Made by a program: the position numbers and the translations under genes. Shown in pieces: positions 18,892 through 27,029 of a stretch of DNA of 33,701 nucleotides; the stretch's first letter is position 1; each line of letters starts with the position of its first letter. Source of the stretch: an uncultured Methylococcaceae bacterium (GTDB lineage Bacteria > Pseudomonadota > Gammaproteobacteria > Methylococcales > Methylomonadaceae); contig CAIXAE010000028.1 of assembly GCA_903917345.1 (NCBI GenBank), positions 1 to 33,701 on the forward strand, given 5' to 3'. The notes under the pieces were generated by a model, which saw nothing but the letters and a program-made list of their open reading frames with translations, was not told the DNA's origin and did not search any database.

Positions 18892-18963
18892 GCTCCAGCC
18901 AAAGCAGGTCTGCATAGCATTGACGTTAATTTAATTGAGTTGGAATTCTTAAAGAGGTCTATT

Positions 18964-19476
18964 TTGCCAAAGAACAAGCATATTACTGAGCCAGATACAT
19001 TTGGATTTCAAGTGCGTATCGTGAGACGCGGCAAAGAAAGTAGTCGATATTTTTCTCATAAACTATGGGGAAGTAAAACTAAATCTTTGAGTGCGGCAAT
19101 TACTTGGCGAGACCAGATGTTAGCCGTGTTAAAAGGTAGTAAAACTCGATTTTTAAAGCCACCTAAAAATAAAACGTCAACGGGTGTGACCGGTGTTTCT
19201 AGAACCATTAAATATGATCACAGAAAAGATAAAAACTATCTTTGCTATACCGTTTTTTGGGTATGTAATGGTAAGTCTAGAAATAAAACGTTCCAAGTAG
19301 GTAACATTGATAAAGTAACTGCAGATGATGAGTTACATGCTTTTAGAACGGCTAAGATATTCAGAATTTGTTACGAAGTTTCAATAGATAACGATATACC
19401 CTTTTATGATGATAAATTTGCGGGTTGGAAAACCACTCGTTTATACGACAATCCAGACTTAGGCGCAGTTGAATAA
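18964..19476 (+). CDS. AP2/ERF-like DNA-binding protein
   Basis: 170 residues from TTG 18964, preferred because AAAGAGG lies six bases upstream; an earlier TTG at 18940 has no such support. The centre (about residues 70-125) resembles AP2/ERF-like DNA-binding modules found in some bacterial and phage proteins: TSTGVTGVSRTIKYDHRKDK, then YTVFWVCNGKSRNKTFQVG and HAFRTAKIFRICYE. The N-terminal part (FGFQVRIVRRGKESSRYFS) looks like a second, weaker copy of the same strand pattern. The protein is basic, with no membrane segment. In homing endonucleases this module is joined to an HNH nuclease; none is present here, so a regulator or nucleoid-type role is more likely. It is a single gene, converging on parB with 43 bases between. 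Confidence 0.6.
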   Translation: MPKNKHITEPDTFGFQVRIVRRGKESSRYFSHKLWGSKTKSLSAAITWRDQMLAVLKGSKTRFLKPPKNKTSTGVTGVSRTIKYDHRKDKNYLCYTVFWVCNGKSRNKTFQVGNIDKVTADDELHAFRTAKIFRICYEVSIDNDIPFYDDKFAGWKTTRLYDNPDLGAVE

Positions 19477-19519: not shown

Positions 19520-20380
19520 TTAATCAGAAATATTAAATTGTTCGATAATTCCATCAAGTTCGTCTAGGCTAGAATAGTTAATAACTACTTTCCCTGAGCC
19601 ATTTTCTTTGTGATCAATTGTCACCTTGGCACCAATTTTTGCTGTTAGACTATTTTGTAGTCGTAAGGTGTCGTTATCAATAATCTTTACAGTAACTGTT
19701 TTGGGTTCGGCTTGGCTTTCTTTAACTAAGCGTTCAGTGGCTCTTACCGTAAGCCCCTCTTTGACTACCTTATTAGCTAAGGCGACTTGTTTGATGCCTT
19801 CTACACCCAATAAAGCGCGTGCATGTCCCATTTCTAATTGATTGTTGACTAATAGTTTTTTTACTTCGGGGTGTAAGTCTATTAATCTTAGAAGATTAGT
19901 GACAGTGGTCCGAGATTTACCAATGGCCTCTGCGATATGTTGATGTGTCATTTCAAACTCATCAATTAGACGCTTTAGGGCTTCTGCTTCTTCTAAGGAA
20001 TTAAGATCTTCTCGTTGAATATTTTCAATAAGCGCCATAGCCATGGCAGAGCGGTCATCAATGTCTTTTATAACAACAGGAACTTGAATTAAGCCTACTA
20101 CTTGGGCAGCTCGCCAGCGTCTTTCCCCTGCGATGATCTCGTATTTTTCAAAGCTAATTTTACGAACAACGATAGGTTGAATAATGCCTTGTGCTTTTAT
20201 TGAGTCCGCTAATTCTTGGAGTTTGTCAGGATTGATATCTTGGCGGGGTTGATATTTGCCGCGTTGTAGGTATTCAATCGGTAAGGTTTGTAGATGTTGT
20301 TTATCTTTATCCTCTTTAACAGAGACATCACCTAATAAGGCATCTAGCCCACGACCCAATCCGCGTTTAGTTGAAGACAT
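19520..20380 (-). CDS. parB: Chromosome partitioning protein ParB
   Basis: 286 residues. It binds parS sites, slides as a CTP-dependent clamp and activates ParA. The N-terminal ParA-contact motif RGLGRGLDALL is at 6-16. The CTP-binding domain has YQPRQ, the GERRWRAA box (85-92) and ENIQREDL (119-126). A helix-turn-helix lies at about 144-167 (HQHIAEAIGKSRTTVTNLLR), and the dimerisation tail is at about 240-286. All parts are present. It is 105 bases downstream of the mini-parB gene, with no strong ribosome binding site but an A/T-rich start region, and probably shares the mnmG-rsmG-parA transcript. No parS (TGTTTCACGTGAAACA) was seen in this window. Confidence 0.97.
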   Translation of the reverse strand: MSSTKRGLGRGLDALLGDVSVKEDKDKQHLQTLPIEYLQRGKYQPRQDINPDKLQELADSIKAQGIIQPIVVRKISFEKYEIIAGERRWRAAQVVGLIQVPVVIKDIDDRSAMAMALIENIQREDLNSLEEAEALKRLIDEFEMTHQHIAEAIGKSRTTVTNLLRLIDLHPEVKKLLVNNQLEMGHARALLGVEGIKQVALANKVVKEGLTVRATERLVKESQAEPKTVTVKIIDNDTLRLQNSLTAKIGAKVTIDHKENGSGKVVINYSSLDELDGIIEQFNISD

Positions 20381-20485: not shown

Positions 20486-20776
20486 TTAACGGTTTATAAG
20501 TATCTCTTCAAATTCAATTAGTAACGCTCTCAAACTTTCAGCTTCATTTAGCAAATGCAAAACGTTTGATACTTTGTCTGTTTGTTCATAGGCTAAAGTA
20601 TTAGAGGGATTTTTACTAATGTTATGTGCGCCTAATGGTCTAAACTCTTTTTCAATTGCGGTACACTCGGCTGCGTTGCTATTAAGATGTGTTTGTTCTT
20701 GGGCTTCTTTTAGATTCCCTACATTAACAAGTAATGCTTCAAGTCCACGGCCTAGGCCTCGATTTTTTATGGTCAT
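20486..20776 (-). CDS. Mini-ParB: ParA-contact motif and one ParB helix only
   Basis: 96 residues, between parA (5-base gap) and parB. Residues 6-16 are RGLGRGLEALL, identical to ParB 6-16 except Glu for Asp; this is the segment of ParB that contacts ParA and carries its stimulating Arg. The last third, EAESLRALLIEFEE, matches ParB EEAEALKRLIDEFE (about 130-143), the helix after the ENIQRE box. Between them is a polar, low-complexity linker (about 17-70). The CTP-binding box, helix-turn-helix and dimerisation tail are gone. So this is a shrunken parB copy, kept as an open frame in the parA transcript. It could tune ParA ATPase without binding parS, or be a dying duplicate. The 105 bases after it look non-coding. 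Confidence 0.7.
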   Translation of the reverse strand: MTIKNRGLGRGLEALLVNVGNLKEAQEQTHLNSNAAECTAIEKEFRPLGAHNISKNPSNTLAYEQTDKVSNVLHLLNEAESLRALLIEFEEILINR

Positions 20777-20781
20777 GCGTG

Positions 20782-21546
20782 TTATTTATTTCTGTTAATC
20801 ATTTCTTTCGCTAACGCAATATAAGCTAAAGTGCCACGCGAAGACTTATCATAATTAATGCCGGGCAAACCATGACTGGGTGCTTCTGCTAAACGAATAT
20901 TTCTTGGAATACAGGTTCTAAATACCTTATCACCGAAGTAGCGGATAAGTTGTTCAGAAACGTCTTTGGTTAAACGGTTTCTATCATCGTACATGGTACG
21001 TAAAATCCCTTCTAACTGTAGGTTAGGGTTAACAGTATTTTGAATATTCTGCAAGGTACTCATTAACGCAGAAATTCCTTCCAATGCGTAATACTCACAT
21101 TGCATAGGGATTAATAAACTATCTGCCGCCACCATGGCATTCAGCGTCAGCATATTTAAAGACGGTGGGCAGTCTATTAAAATGTAATCAAAGTCATCTT
21201 TAATTGGAATTAAAGCATCTGCTAAACGTAACTCTTTACGGTCAGCATGGATTAATTTTATTTCTGCGGCGGTAAGATCTTCATTGCCTGCAATTACAGA
21301 AAATTTGATGTTTTCTTGATAGATAATGGTAGCAGTCGCGGGAACATCTTCCATTAACAAATCATAACTGGAGTATTTGACTTCCTGTTTGTCAACGCCA
21401 CAACCCATGGCCGCATTGCCTTGTGGGTCGAGATCAATTAGTAGTACGCGTTTTTTTGCAGCCGCTAAACAGGCGCTCAAATTGACACTGGTAGTAGTTT
21501 TTCCAACGCCACCTTTTTGATTGGTTATGGCAATTATTTTACCCAC
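20782..21546 (-). CDS. parA: Chromosome partitioning ATPase ParA
   Basis: 254 residues, a typical chromosomal (short) ParA/Soj without an N-terminal DNA-binding extension. The deviant Walker A box is KGGVGKTT (11-18, Lys11 and Lys16), with LLIDLDPQGNA next and Walker B DYILIDCPPSL. ATP-bound ParA binds the nucleoid and is discharged by ParB, moving origins apart. Its first 13 bases overlap the end of rsmG. The mini-parB frame follows 5 bases after the stop, then parB. Confidence 0.97.
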   Translation of the reverse strand: MGKIIAITNQKGGVGKTTTSVNLSACLAAAKKRVLLIDLDPQGNAAMGCGVDKQEVKYSSYDLLMEDVPATATIIYQENIKFSVIAGNEDLTAAEIKLIHADRKELRLADALIPIKDDFDYILIDCPPSLNMLTLNAMVAADSLLIPMQCEYYALEGISALMSTLQNIQNTVNPNLQLEGILRTMYDDRNRLTKDVSEQLIRYFGDKVFRTCIPRNIRLAEAPSHGLPGINYDKSSRGTLAYIALAKEMINRNK

Positions 21547-26183: not shown

Positions 26184-27029
26184 TCAAGCGTGTTTAGCTA
26201 AAGCGTCTGTAACGAGTTTGATAAAATCATCTTCATTATTTACTTTTGCTACATCATTAGCATCTACGGTATAGCCATATTCATCAGCAATGGCTTGGTA
26301 GCGGGGAATTCTGGATTTAAATAACTCTGGAAATACCCAGGTCACAAATTCATCCGGTGGCATTACATCGGTAGATGCATAATTTTTTAAACTCATAAAT
26401 TCAGCTAATTTTTCATCCAGAAAAGCTTCTCGGTAATAGAGAGGCTTAGGGTCTGTTTTAGCACGTTCTATAATAGTTTGTTCTAATGCGGGCGGAATTT
26501 TGATGTAGATAATAAGTGTGTTATCCGCCAAGGTTTTTAAAACTTCTGGGTTATCTAATTCACAAACACTGCCACCTGCATCATTAATAAAGTGATGATA
26601 GCCATAGATGTCTTCAGCTTTATGAATAAACTCAGGCACATCATTCATTGCAGCGACTTCAGCTTGATGATGTAAATGTTGTCTACGTTTAAATTCGGTT
26701 AAAGACATACCGCCCTGTTTTGCATCACCCAATTTGCCTAAAAAAGTAGAGACAGGTGCTAAGTTATCAACCGTGATTTTATTAGAAATATAAATTGAGT
26801 CAGACATTAACAGGTCACGTAAAAAGGGTACGCTCATGGCCTGACGTTTAATGTTATCTAAAATGGGTTCTCTTAGATATTTGGTGCCTATTCGATAGTC
26901 ACCCGAATAATGAAACCATTTAGCCTTTGGTAGCTTGTTTGCTAAAGTAGTTTTACCCGCTCCTGACATGGCCAGTAAAGTGATTCTTTTTGAGGGCCAG
27001 TCTAAGAACTCCTGTGGACTCATTCTCAT
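26184..27029 (-). CDS. P-loop nucleotide-binding protein (kinase-like), unknown role
   Basis: 281 residues. A Walker A loop, LLAMSGAGKTTLANKLPKA, lies at 18-36, with Ala in place of the first Gly, as in some nucleoside and adenylate kinase-like proteins. The following WFHYSGDYRIGTKYLREPIL is a plausible substrate segment with paired Tyr/Arg residues. A second conserved-looking part is YGYHHFINDAGGSVCELDNP (about 142-161). No membrane segment is seen. AGGAAA precedes the ATG; MSPQEF two codons on is an alternative. It sits between the DUF6763 gene and metA on one strand. The neighbourhood suggests a link to amino-acid metabolism, but I do not assign a substrate. Confidence 0.7.
   Translation of the reverse strand: MRMSPQEFLDWPSKRITLLAMSGAGKTTLANKLPKAKWFHYSGDYRIGTKYLREPILDNIKRQAMSVPFLRDLLMSDSIYISNKITVDNLAPVSTFLGKLGDAKQGGMSLTEFKRRQHLHHQAEVAAMNDVPEFIHKAEDIYGYHHFINDAGGSVCELDNPEVLKTLADNTLIIYIKIPPALEQTIIERAKTDPKPLYYREAFLDEKLAEFMSLKNYASTDVMPPDEFVTWVFPELFKSRIPRYQAIADEYGYTVDANDVAKVNNEDDFIKLVTDALAKHA

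Follow-up and report, generated by a model that had tools for sequence, protein, structure and literature searches.

The window analysed here, the whole 33,701-nucleotide stretch from an uncultured Methylococcaceae bacterium, carries between parA and parB a short gene, mini-ParB. It is a real, conserved gene on which selection is strongest at the two ends, an N-terminal ParA-contact motif and a C-terminal helix. We favour, with moderate confidence, the reading that it is a truncated parB copy whose ends are kept by selection and whose product would be a dimeric ligand or stimulator of ParA, independent of CTP and parS.

The parA-parB locus and its conservation

The contig of the window belongs to a 2.48-Mb genome, in which a ParB_N search at E 0.001 returned the window parB as the single match. 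The minus-strand order in the window is gidA/mnmG-like, rsmG-like (both named from sequence), parA, mini-ParB and parB, with the following features.

19520..20380, minus strand: parB, complete, with ParB_N, HTH_ParB and ParB_C; kin of the duplicated piece
20486..20776, minus strand: mini-ParB gene, 96 codons with an ATG start; 84 other genomes have a homologous open frame in this position
20492..20608, minus strand: C-terminal long helix, modelled residues 57-95, conserved core LLNEAESLRALLIEFEE; ParB alpha3-alpha4 counterpart
20555..20728, minus strand: mini-ParB linker, codons 17-74, variable, occupying the place of the ParB CTPase core; dN/dS 0.380
20729..20761, minus strand: ParA-contact motif RGLGRGLEALL, codons 6-16, invariant or nearly so in two alignments; dN/dS 0.028
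20782..21546, minus strand: parA, directly upstream, the presumed target of mini-ParB

The sequence-only reading had reported a 96-codon frame at 20486-20776 between parA and parB, and the frame, its minus strand and its length were as claimed. Mini-ParB is separated from the parA stop codon by 5 nt and from the parB start by 105 nt, and its product is laid out as MTIKNRGLGRGLEALLVNV..., a linker and LLNEAESLRALLIEFEEILINR. Judging from strand and spacing, parA and mini-ParB are presumably co-transcribed. Convergent to parB lies a 178-codon frame with a TTG start (18940-19476, plus strand), which had no Pfam match at 1e-4 and which resembles AP2-like DNA-binding repeats (GVTGVSR...). A search of the window for parS found nothing closer than a site with three mismatches, the level expected by chance. 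Two TGTTCCACGTGGAACA palindromes 38 nt apart on another contig (G000:C21:26426-26441 and 26464-26479), each with one mismatch to the consensus as typed, are likely parS.

The genus sample comprised 34 same-genus relatives and 26 other genomes, which were searched with the mini-ParB frame and with ParA. ParA was matched in 31 of the 34 relatives, the remaining three (G006, G020 and G033) being 65-79% complete. Wherever the parA-parB spot was readable, it carried the gene (32/32 genomes, the 31 relatives and the window's own), in the form of open frames of 83-148 codons, identically placed and with both ends kept. Weak matches with an internal stop in G006, G004 and G022 (E 0.14, 0.28 and 0.51, respectively) lay elsewhere in the genome and were taken as chance.

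The family sample added 90 further loci, from one to several genomes per genus, 89 of them with both parA and parB. The parA-parB gap was bimodal in these 89 loci, 51 having at least 189 nt and 38 at most 68 nt. All 51 long-gap loci carried the frame, and 50 were extracted with a start codon; in the other, L208, the ATG rule gave no start, and a profile search reports an open 97-codon frame. No mini-ParB frame was found in the 38 short-gap loci. Together with three more named loci, the full set comprised 85 mini-ParBs from 85 loci, all distinct in DNA, all starting with ATG and 63 to 160 codons long. A homologous frame in relatives, which the sequence-only reading had proposed as a check, was thus present in 31 relatives of the genus and in 53 other genomes of the order, the latter likewise with both ends. 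Outside the family, five loci had parA-parB gaps of 151-262 nt and no such frame, so a long gap alone does not imply the gene. The recurrence of the frame at one place across genera is far beyond chance.

Selection, motif signature and gene spacing

Ratios of dN/dS were calculated by the Nei-Gojobori method and pooled over 28 pairs, which drew on 56 of the 82 eligible loci, left out three named loci, used each genome once and had parA DNA identities of 0.80-0.995. The ratio was 0.028 for the 11 motif codons (bootstrap 0.017-0.039) and 0.129 for the 17 codons of the C-terminal helix core (bootstrap 0.085-0.178; this 17-codon stretch was placed by a pattern in one row per pair, which may slightly flatter the value), against 0.380 for the linker between motif and helix (bootstrap 0.314-0.443); since dS exceeded 1 in several pairs these values are rough, with a contrast that is nevertheless large, and the linker ratio is itself below 1, so that saturation could explain part of that contrast. 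The tail after the helix gave 0.348, and the neighbouring parA and parB gave 0.040 and 0.063, respectively. When simply the last 27 codons were taken, in an earlier run of 31 pairs in which three genomes occurred twice, the ratio was 0.185 compared with 0.375 for the middle. Linker length ranged from 23 to 119 residues (median 48) among the 85 mini-ParBs. The sequence-only reading had argued for selection rather than decay and had proposed, besides the search in relatives, a comparison of dN/dS between motif and linker; both came out on the side of selection, the motif being far more constrained.

The motif itself had been described as matching that of the neighbouring ParB at 10 of 11 residues, which is what we counted (RGLGRGLEALL in the window mini-ParB and RGLGRGLDALL in the window ParB). 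The difference recurs: motif position 8 is E in 83/85 mini-ParBs and D in every one of the 85 neighbouring ParBs counted, which indicates that the two copies have diverged. Similarly, position 12 is G in only four of the 85 mini-ParBs, most having V or A, and in 85/85 of the accompanying ParBs. There were 86 mini-ParB-bearing loci, and 85 ParBs were counted since that of L197 is a fragment without the motif; the loci are related, so the 85 mini-ParBs are not 85 independent events. Position 8 is looser in the other ParBs of the family (D in 26/39, a group that includes the mini-ParB-bearing L208). The ParB-type motif (L/F/I)G[K/R]G(L/F/I) was found in 83 of the 85 mini-ParBs, the first G being replaced by N or S in the remaining two, and position 5 is basic throughout (R in 83, K in 2). 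The frames had been selected by a looser form of the motif, and no long-gap locus of the family was lost for want of it.

Gene spacing is tight on the parA side. All 85 starts lie within -14 to +8 nt of the parA end, 61 overlap parA, and in 48 the overlap with the parA stop codon is 4 nt, so that translation of mini-ParB is probably coupled to that of parA, which would tie its level to that of ParA. Such overlaps, together with those of 15/85 ends with the start of parB, are what would be expected if the frame merely coupled parA-parB translation or spaced the genes, with the protein itself irrelevant. We regard this as very improbable, because selection acts on the amino acids, 70/85 mini-ParBs stop 19 to 610 nt before parB, and unlinked copies exist. 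Structured RNA was also sought in the spacer between mini-ParB and parB of the window, which folds no better than its shuffles (z -1.0).

Probable descent from parB

Eight members of the genus have long mini-ParBs of 144-148 codons, which amount to ParB as far as the helix preceding the HTH. All eight scored above the Pfam cut-off for ParB_N (E 6.5e-9 to 4e-27). All of them have altered residues in boxes I and II, without exception lacking the arginine and glutamine of box I, and the box III asparagine is gone in 7/8; the partner ParBs are intact at all of these residues (8/8). We take these residues, box names included, to be those of the ParB CTPase boxes I-III. In a quick tree from 126 columns, which has long branches, the CTPase domains of the eight long and three shorter mini-ParBs grouped together (SH-aLRT 98), nested among the ParBs of the mini-ParB-bearing group; the tree did not settle their exact sister. 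A 139-codon mini-ParB falls just below the ParB_N cut-off, and a 125-codon one no longer matches.

A profile built from 38 short mini-ParBs, with none of the eight long ones, matched Caulobacter ParB at E 2.6e-7 over the whole sequence, in the collinear pieces 1-30 and 111-150 with the CTPase core skipped; the second piece, which is weak alone (independent E 2.3), covers the alpha3-alpha4 region at the end of the N-terminal domain. Upon clamp closure, alpha3 is described as swinging out and packing with alpha4 of the opposite subunit (PMC8367383). A ParB-like C-terminal helix had also been pointed out by the sequence-only reading, and EAESLRALLIEFE compared with EAEALKRLIDEFE gave 8/13 identities counted by eye. 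The window frame had no Pfam domain up to E 1; the further statement of that reading that all clamp features are lost is slightly too strong, since this C-terminal part is retained. The 38 short mini-ParBs matched no ParB family of Pfam at E 0.01; single matches to DivIC or leucine-zipper families reflect their helices and nothing specific. ParB-family models of NCBIfam matched a minority of them (Noc 9, parB_part 3 and PRTRC_parB 1), which fits descent from ParB.

The canonical CTPase fold is absent from the short mini-ParBs and present, with altered boxes, in the eight long ones, and HTH_ParB and the ParB_C dimer domain, both found in the window's ParB, occur in no mini-ParB scanned. Mini-ParB resembles chromosomal ParB (Spo0J) in three respects, the ParA-contact motif near its N-terminal start, the place of the gene next to parA and a C-terminal helix that can be aligned with alpha3-alpha4. 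It differs in the CTPase core, HTH and dimer domain, and at two motif positions, which are D and G in the ParB next door and E and mostly V or A here. As a ParB it falls short, since HTH and dimer domain are missing and the CTPase core is absent or altered.

Since the long forms are still ParB_N with altered nucleotide boxes, the gene appears to have begun as a truncated tandem copy of parB, which probably lost first the CTP pocket and then the fold while keeping the ParA peptide and the swap helices. The short mini-ParBs of other genera would have passed through the same long stage. A decaying tandem copy, which the sequence-only reading had offered as its other interpretation, would thus be correct as to the origin and mistaken as to the fate. 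In favour of decay, the long forms are evidently truncated copies of ParB and the middle of the gene shrinks differently between lineages; against it, the frame is open in every long-gap locus read, its ends are under strong purifying selection, the motif has a copy-specific signature, and unlinked copies retain the same two ends. A functionless remnant is therefore hardly tenable.

Proposed function and distribution

The window mini-ParB was modelled with AlphaFold2 as a single chain from an alignment of nine sequences (pTM 0.31, mean pLDDT 63). The model has a short helix over the motif (residues 10-15), an uncertain linker with pLDDT below 50 at residues 37-45 and 47-56, and a single long helix (57-95) with a block of pLDDT 87-94 from residue 71 and lower values before it. 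Mean hydrophobicity along the aligned helix was most periodic, among eight angles tried, at the coiled-coil period of 102.9 degrees per residue (p 0.0018 by shuffling, uncorrected), which is suggestive of a heptad repeat. A near-invariant E lies within the stripe, which is unusual for a plain zipper.

According to PMC12462528, ParB1-20 suffices for ParA binding and stimulates ParA with DNA, and closed ParB clamps stimulate ParA over tenfold more than single peptides. The activating proteins of ParA/MinD ATPases are described as modular, with an N-terminal peptide bearing basic residues grafted on an interaction domain (PMC7993993), and mini-ParB would have the right architecture for such a protein. 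We infer that it is translated, dimerises and has a cellular role and, from the conserved motif and the published ParB-peptide experiments, that it binds ParA and stimulates the ATPase. Mini-ParB probably pairs through its long C-terminal helix into a dimer that presents two ParA-contact peptides on flexible linkers; this dimer would bind ParA-ATP dimers on the nucleoid and, with no need of CTP, stimulate or at least modulate their ATPase at a distance from parS. Such a second partner, whose synthesis coupled translation would match to that of ParA, would set the cellular turnover of ParA while ParB acts at the partition complex. With both ends guarded by evolution, the ParA motor probably has a second, DNA-independent partner. 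The wider picture, in which ParA has two partners from its operon, ParB as the CTP clamp at parS and, derived from ParB, a diffusible dimer without clamp that would discharge ParA throughout the nucleoid and set its turnover much as MinE does for MinD, is put forward tentatively, as a possibility somewhat short of even.

Two other functions were weighed against stimulation by a dimer. Mini-ParB could be an adaptor whose motif holds ParA while the helix binds another partner (the alpha3-alpha4 gate of ParB, or a pole or membrane protein), so that it recruits ParA to a place or tunes the ParB clamp instead of generally discharging ParA. The helix is indeed under a constraint of its own (dN/dS 0.129) and derives from a stretch of ParB whose helices are reported to be exchanged on gate closure (PMC8367383), and the ParB relative PadC is described as recruiting ParA to a scaffold (PMC12704722); however, no candidate partner gene stands out among the neighbours of the operon copy and the unlinked copies, and we consider the adaptor unlikely. 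Somewhat less likely again is a competitive inhibitor, a monomeric weak stimulator lodged in the ParB pocket of ParA, where it would make ParA-ParB tethers longer or shorter. Single peptides are reported to bind but to be weaker stimulators than closed clamps by a factor of more than ten (PMC12462528), and an altered ligand would depart from the motif of the neighbouring ParB, as mini-ParB does at two positions, but a monomer needs no conserved C-terminal helix, and the helix here shows a coiled-coil-like stripe.

If it is a dimeric ParA ligand, mini-ParB would share with PomX, MinE, McdB, ParG and TlpT, as these are described in PMC7993993, a short basic N-terminal peptide on an interaction region, and would differ from such activating proteins in deriving from ParB and in sharing a ParA that is already partnered by ParB. 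PadC of Myxococcus xanthus and other motif-bearing relatives of ParB are likewise second ParA-motif proteins beside ParB; PadC is described as keeping a CTP-binding ParB fold and recruiting ParA to bactofilins (PMC12704722), whereas the short mini-ParBs are without the fold. Noc is also a parB duplicate kept for a new role, but by the account in PMC12704722 it has canonical domains and no ParA motif, the reverse of mini-ParB. Searches of open-licence PMC papers, read as titles and abstract openings, yielded no report of such a protein. A survey that took the ParB CTPase fold as its starting point would presumably overlook the short mini-ParBs, which are without it. A ParA-contact peptide without a clamp in a natural protein would uncouple the stimulation of ParA from the centromere, and the lineages with the gene in the operon, elsewhere or absent form a natural experiment. 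The series shows a possible route to an ATPase activating protein, a DNA clamp pared down with intermediates still alive.

Mapped onto a quick tree of ParA+ParB from 129 loci, the trait requires five changes or more, as in a history of a single gain plus four losses. Four genomes inside or beside the clade (G105, G182, G237 and G241) are without mini-ParB though parAB is intact, and their only matches were ParB and weak ones elsewhere (E at least 0.56; one in G105, at E 0.63 and with an internal stop, was taken as chance). With at least four such lineages, the gene is dispensable. Copies outside the operon were found as follows.

L277-L283, e.g. L281:3985-4218, minus strand: unlinked mini-ParB beside metG, a 4Fe-4S protein gene and tRNA-Arg(CCG)
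L284:3005-3250, minus strand: unlinked 81-codon mini-ParB of G272, from another family of the order, beside rapZ

The first are 73 or 77 codons long and occupy one syntenic spot in seven Methylomonas-like genomes (genus code g27), whose parA-parB gap is -4 nt, with the frame absent, and whose ParA shares 92-94% identity with the Methylomonas sp. SURF-2 protein; in G272, the gap of 13 nt is empty. All eight unlinked copies carry both ends.

In a class sample of 369 genomes (at least four of the window's own order) and an overlapping phylum sample of 398 genomes, only the window's own genome matched at E 1e-9 or below; three mini-ParB-bearing genomes of the family (G068, G069 and G192) had best matches of merely 5e-9 to 3e-8, so that this strict threshold may miss divergent relatives elsewhere. 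A plasmid collection searched with one Methylomonas-like mini-ParB gave no plasmid-borne copy.

Thirteen genomes of the family (G061, G062, G063, G078, G201, G231, G232, G239, G242, G255, G257, G258 and G259), 12 of them at least 90% complete, had ParA relatives that were all distant (best E 7.7e-36 to 1.1e-39), as if the chromosomal parA had been lost, with assembly gaps possible. These genomes without an orthologous parA had no mini-ParB either, which says little, since a linked gene would vanish with the operon. Finally, the parA-parB gap of L242 (G191) measures 860 nt, of which about 600 nt lie between mini-ParB and parB; this stretch has runs rich in C and runs rich in G, seemingly complementary on inspection, and is perhaps a small mobile element.
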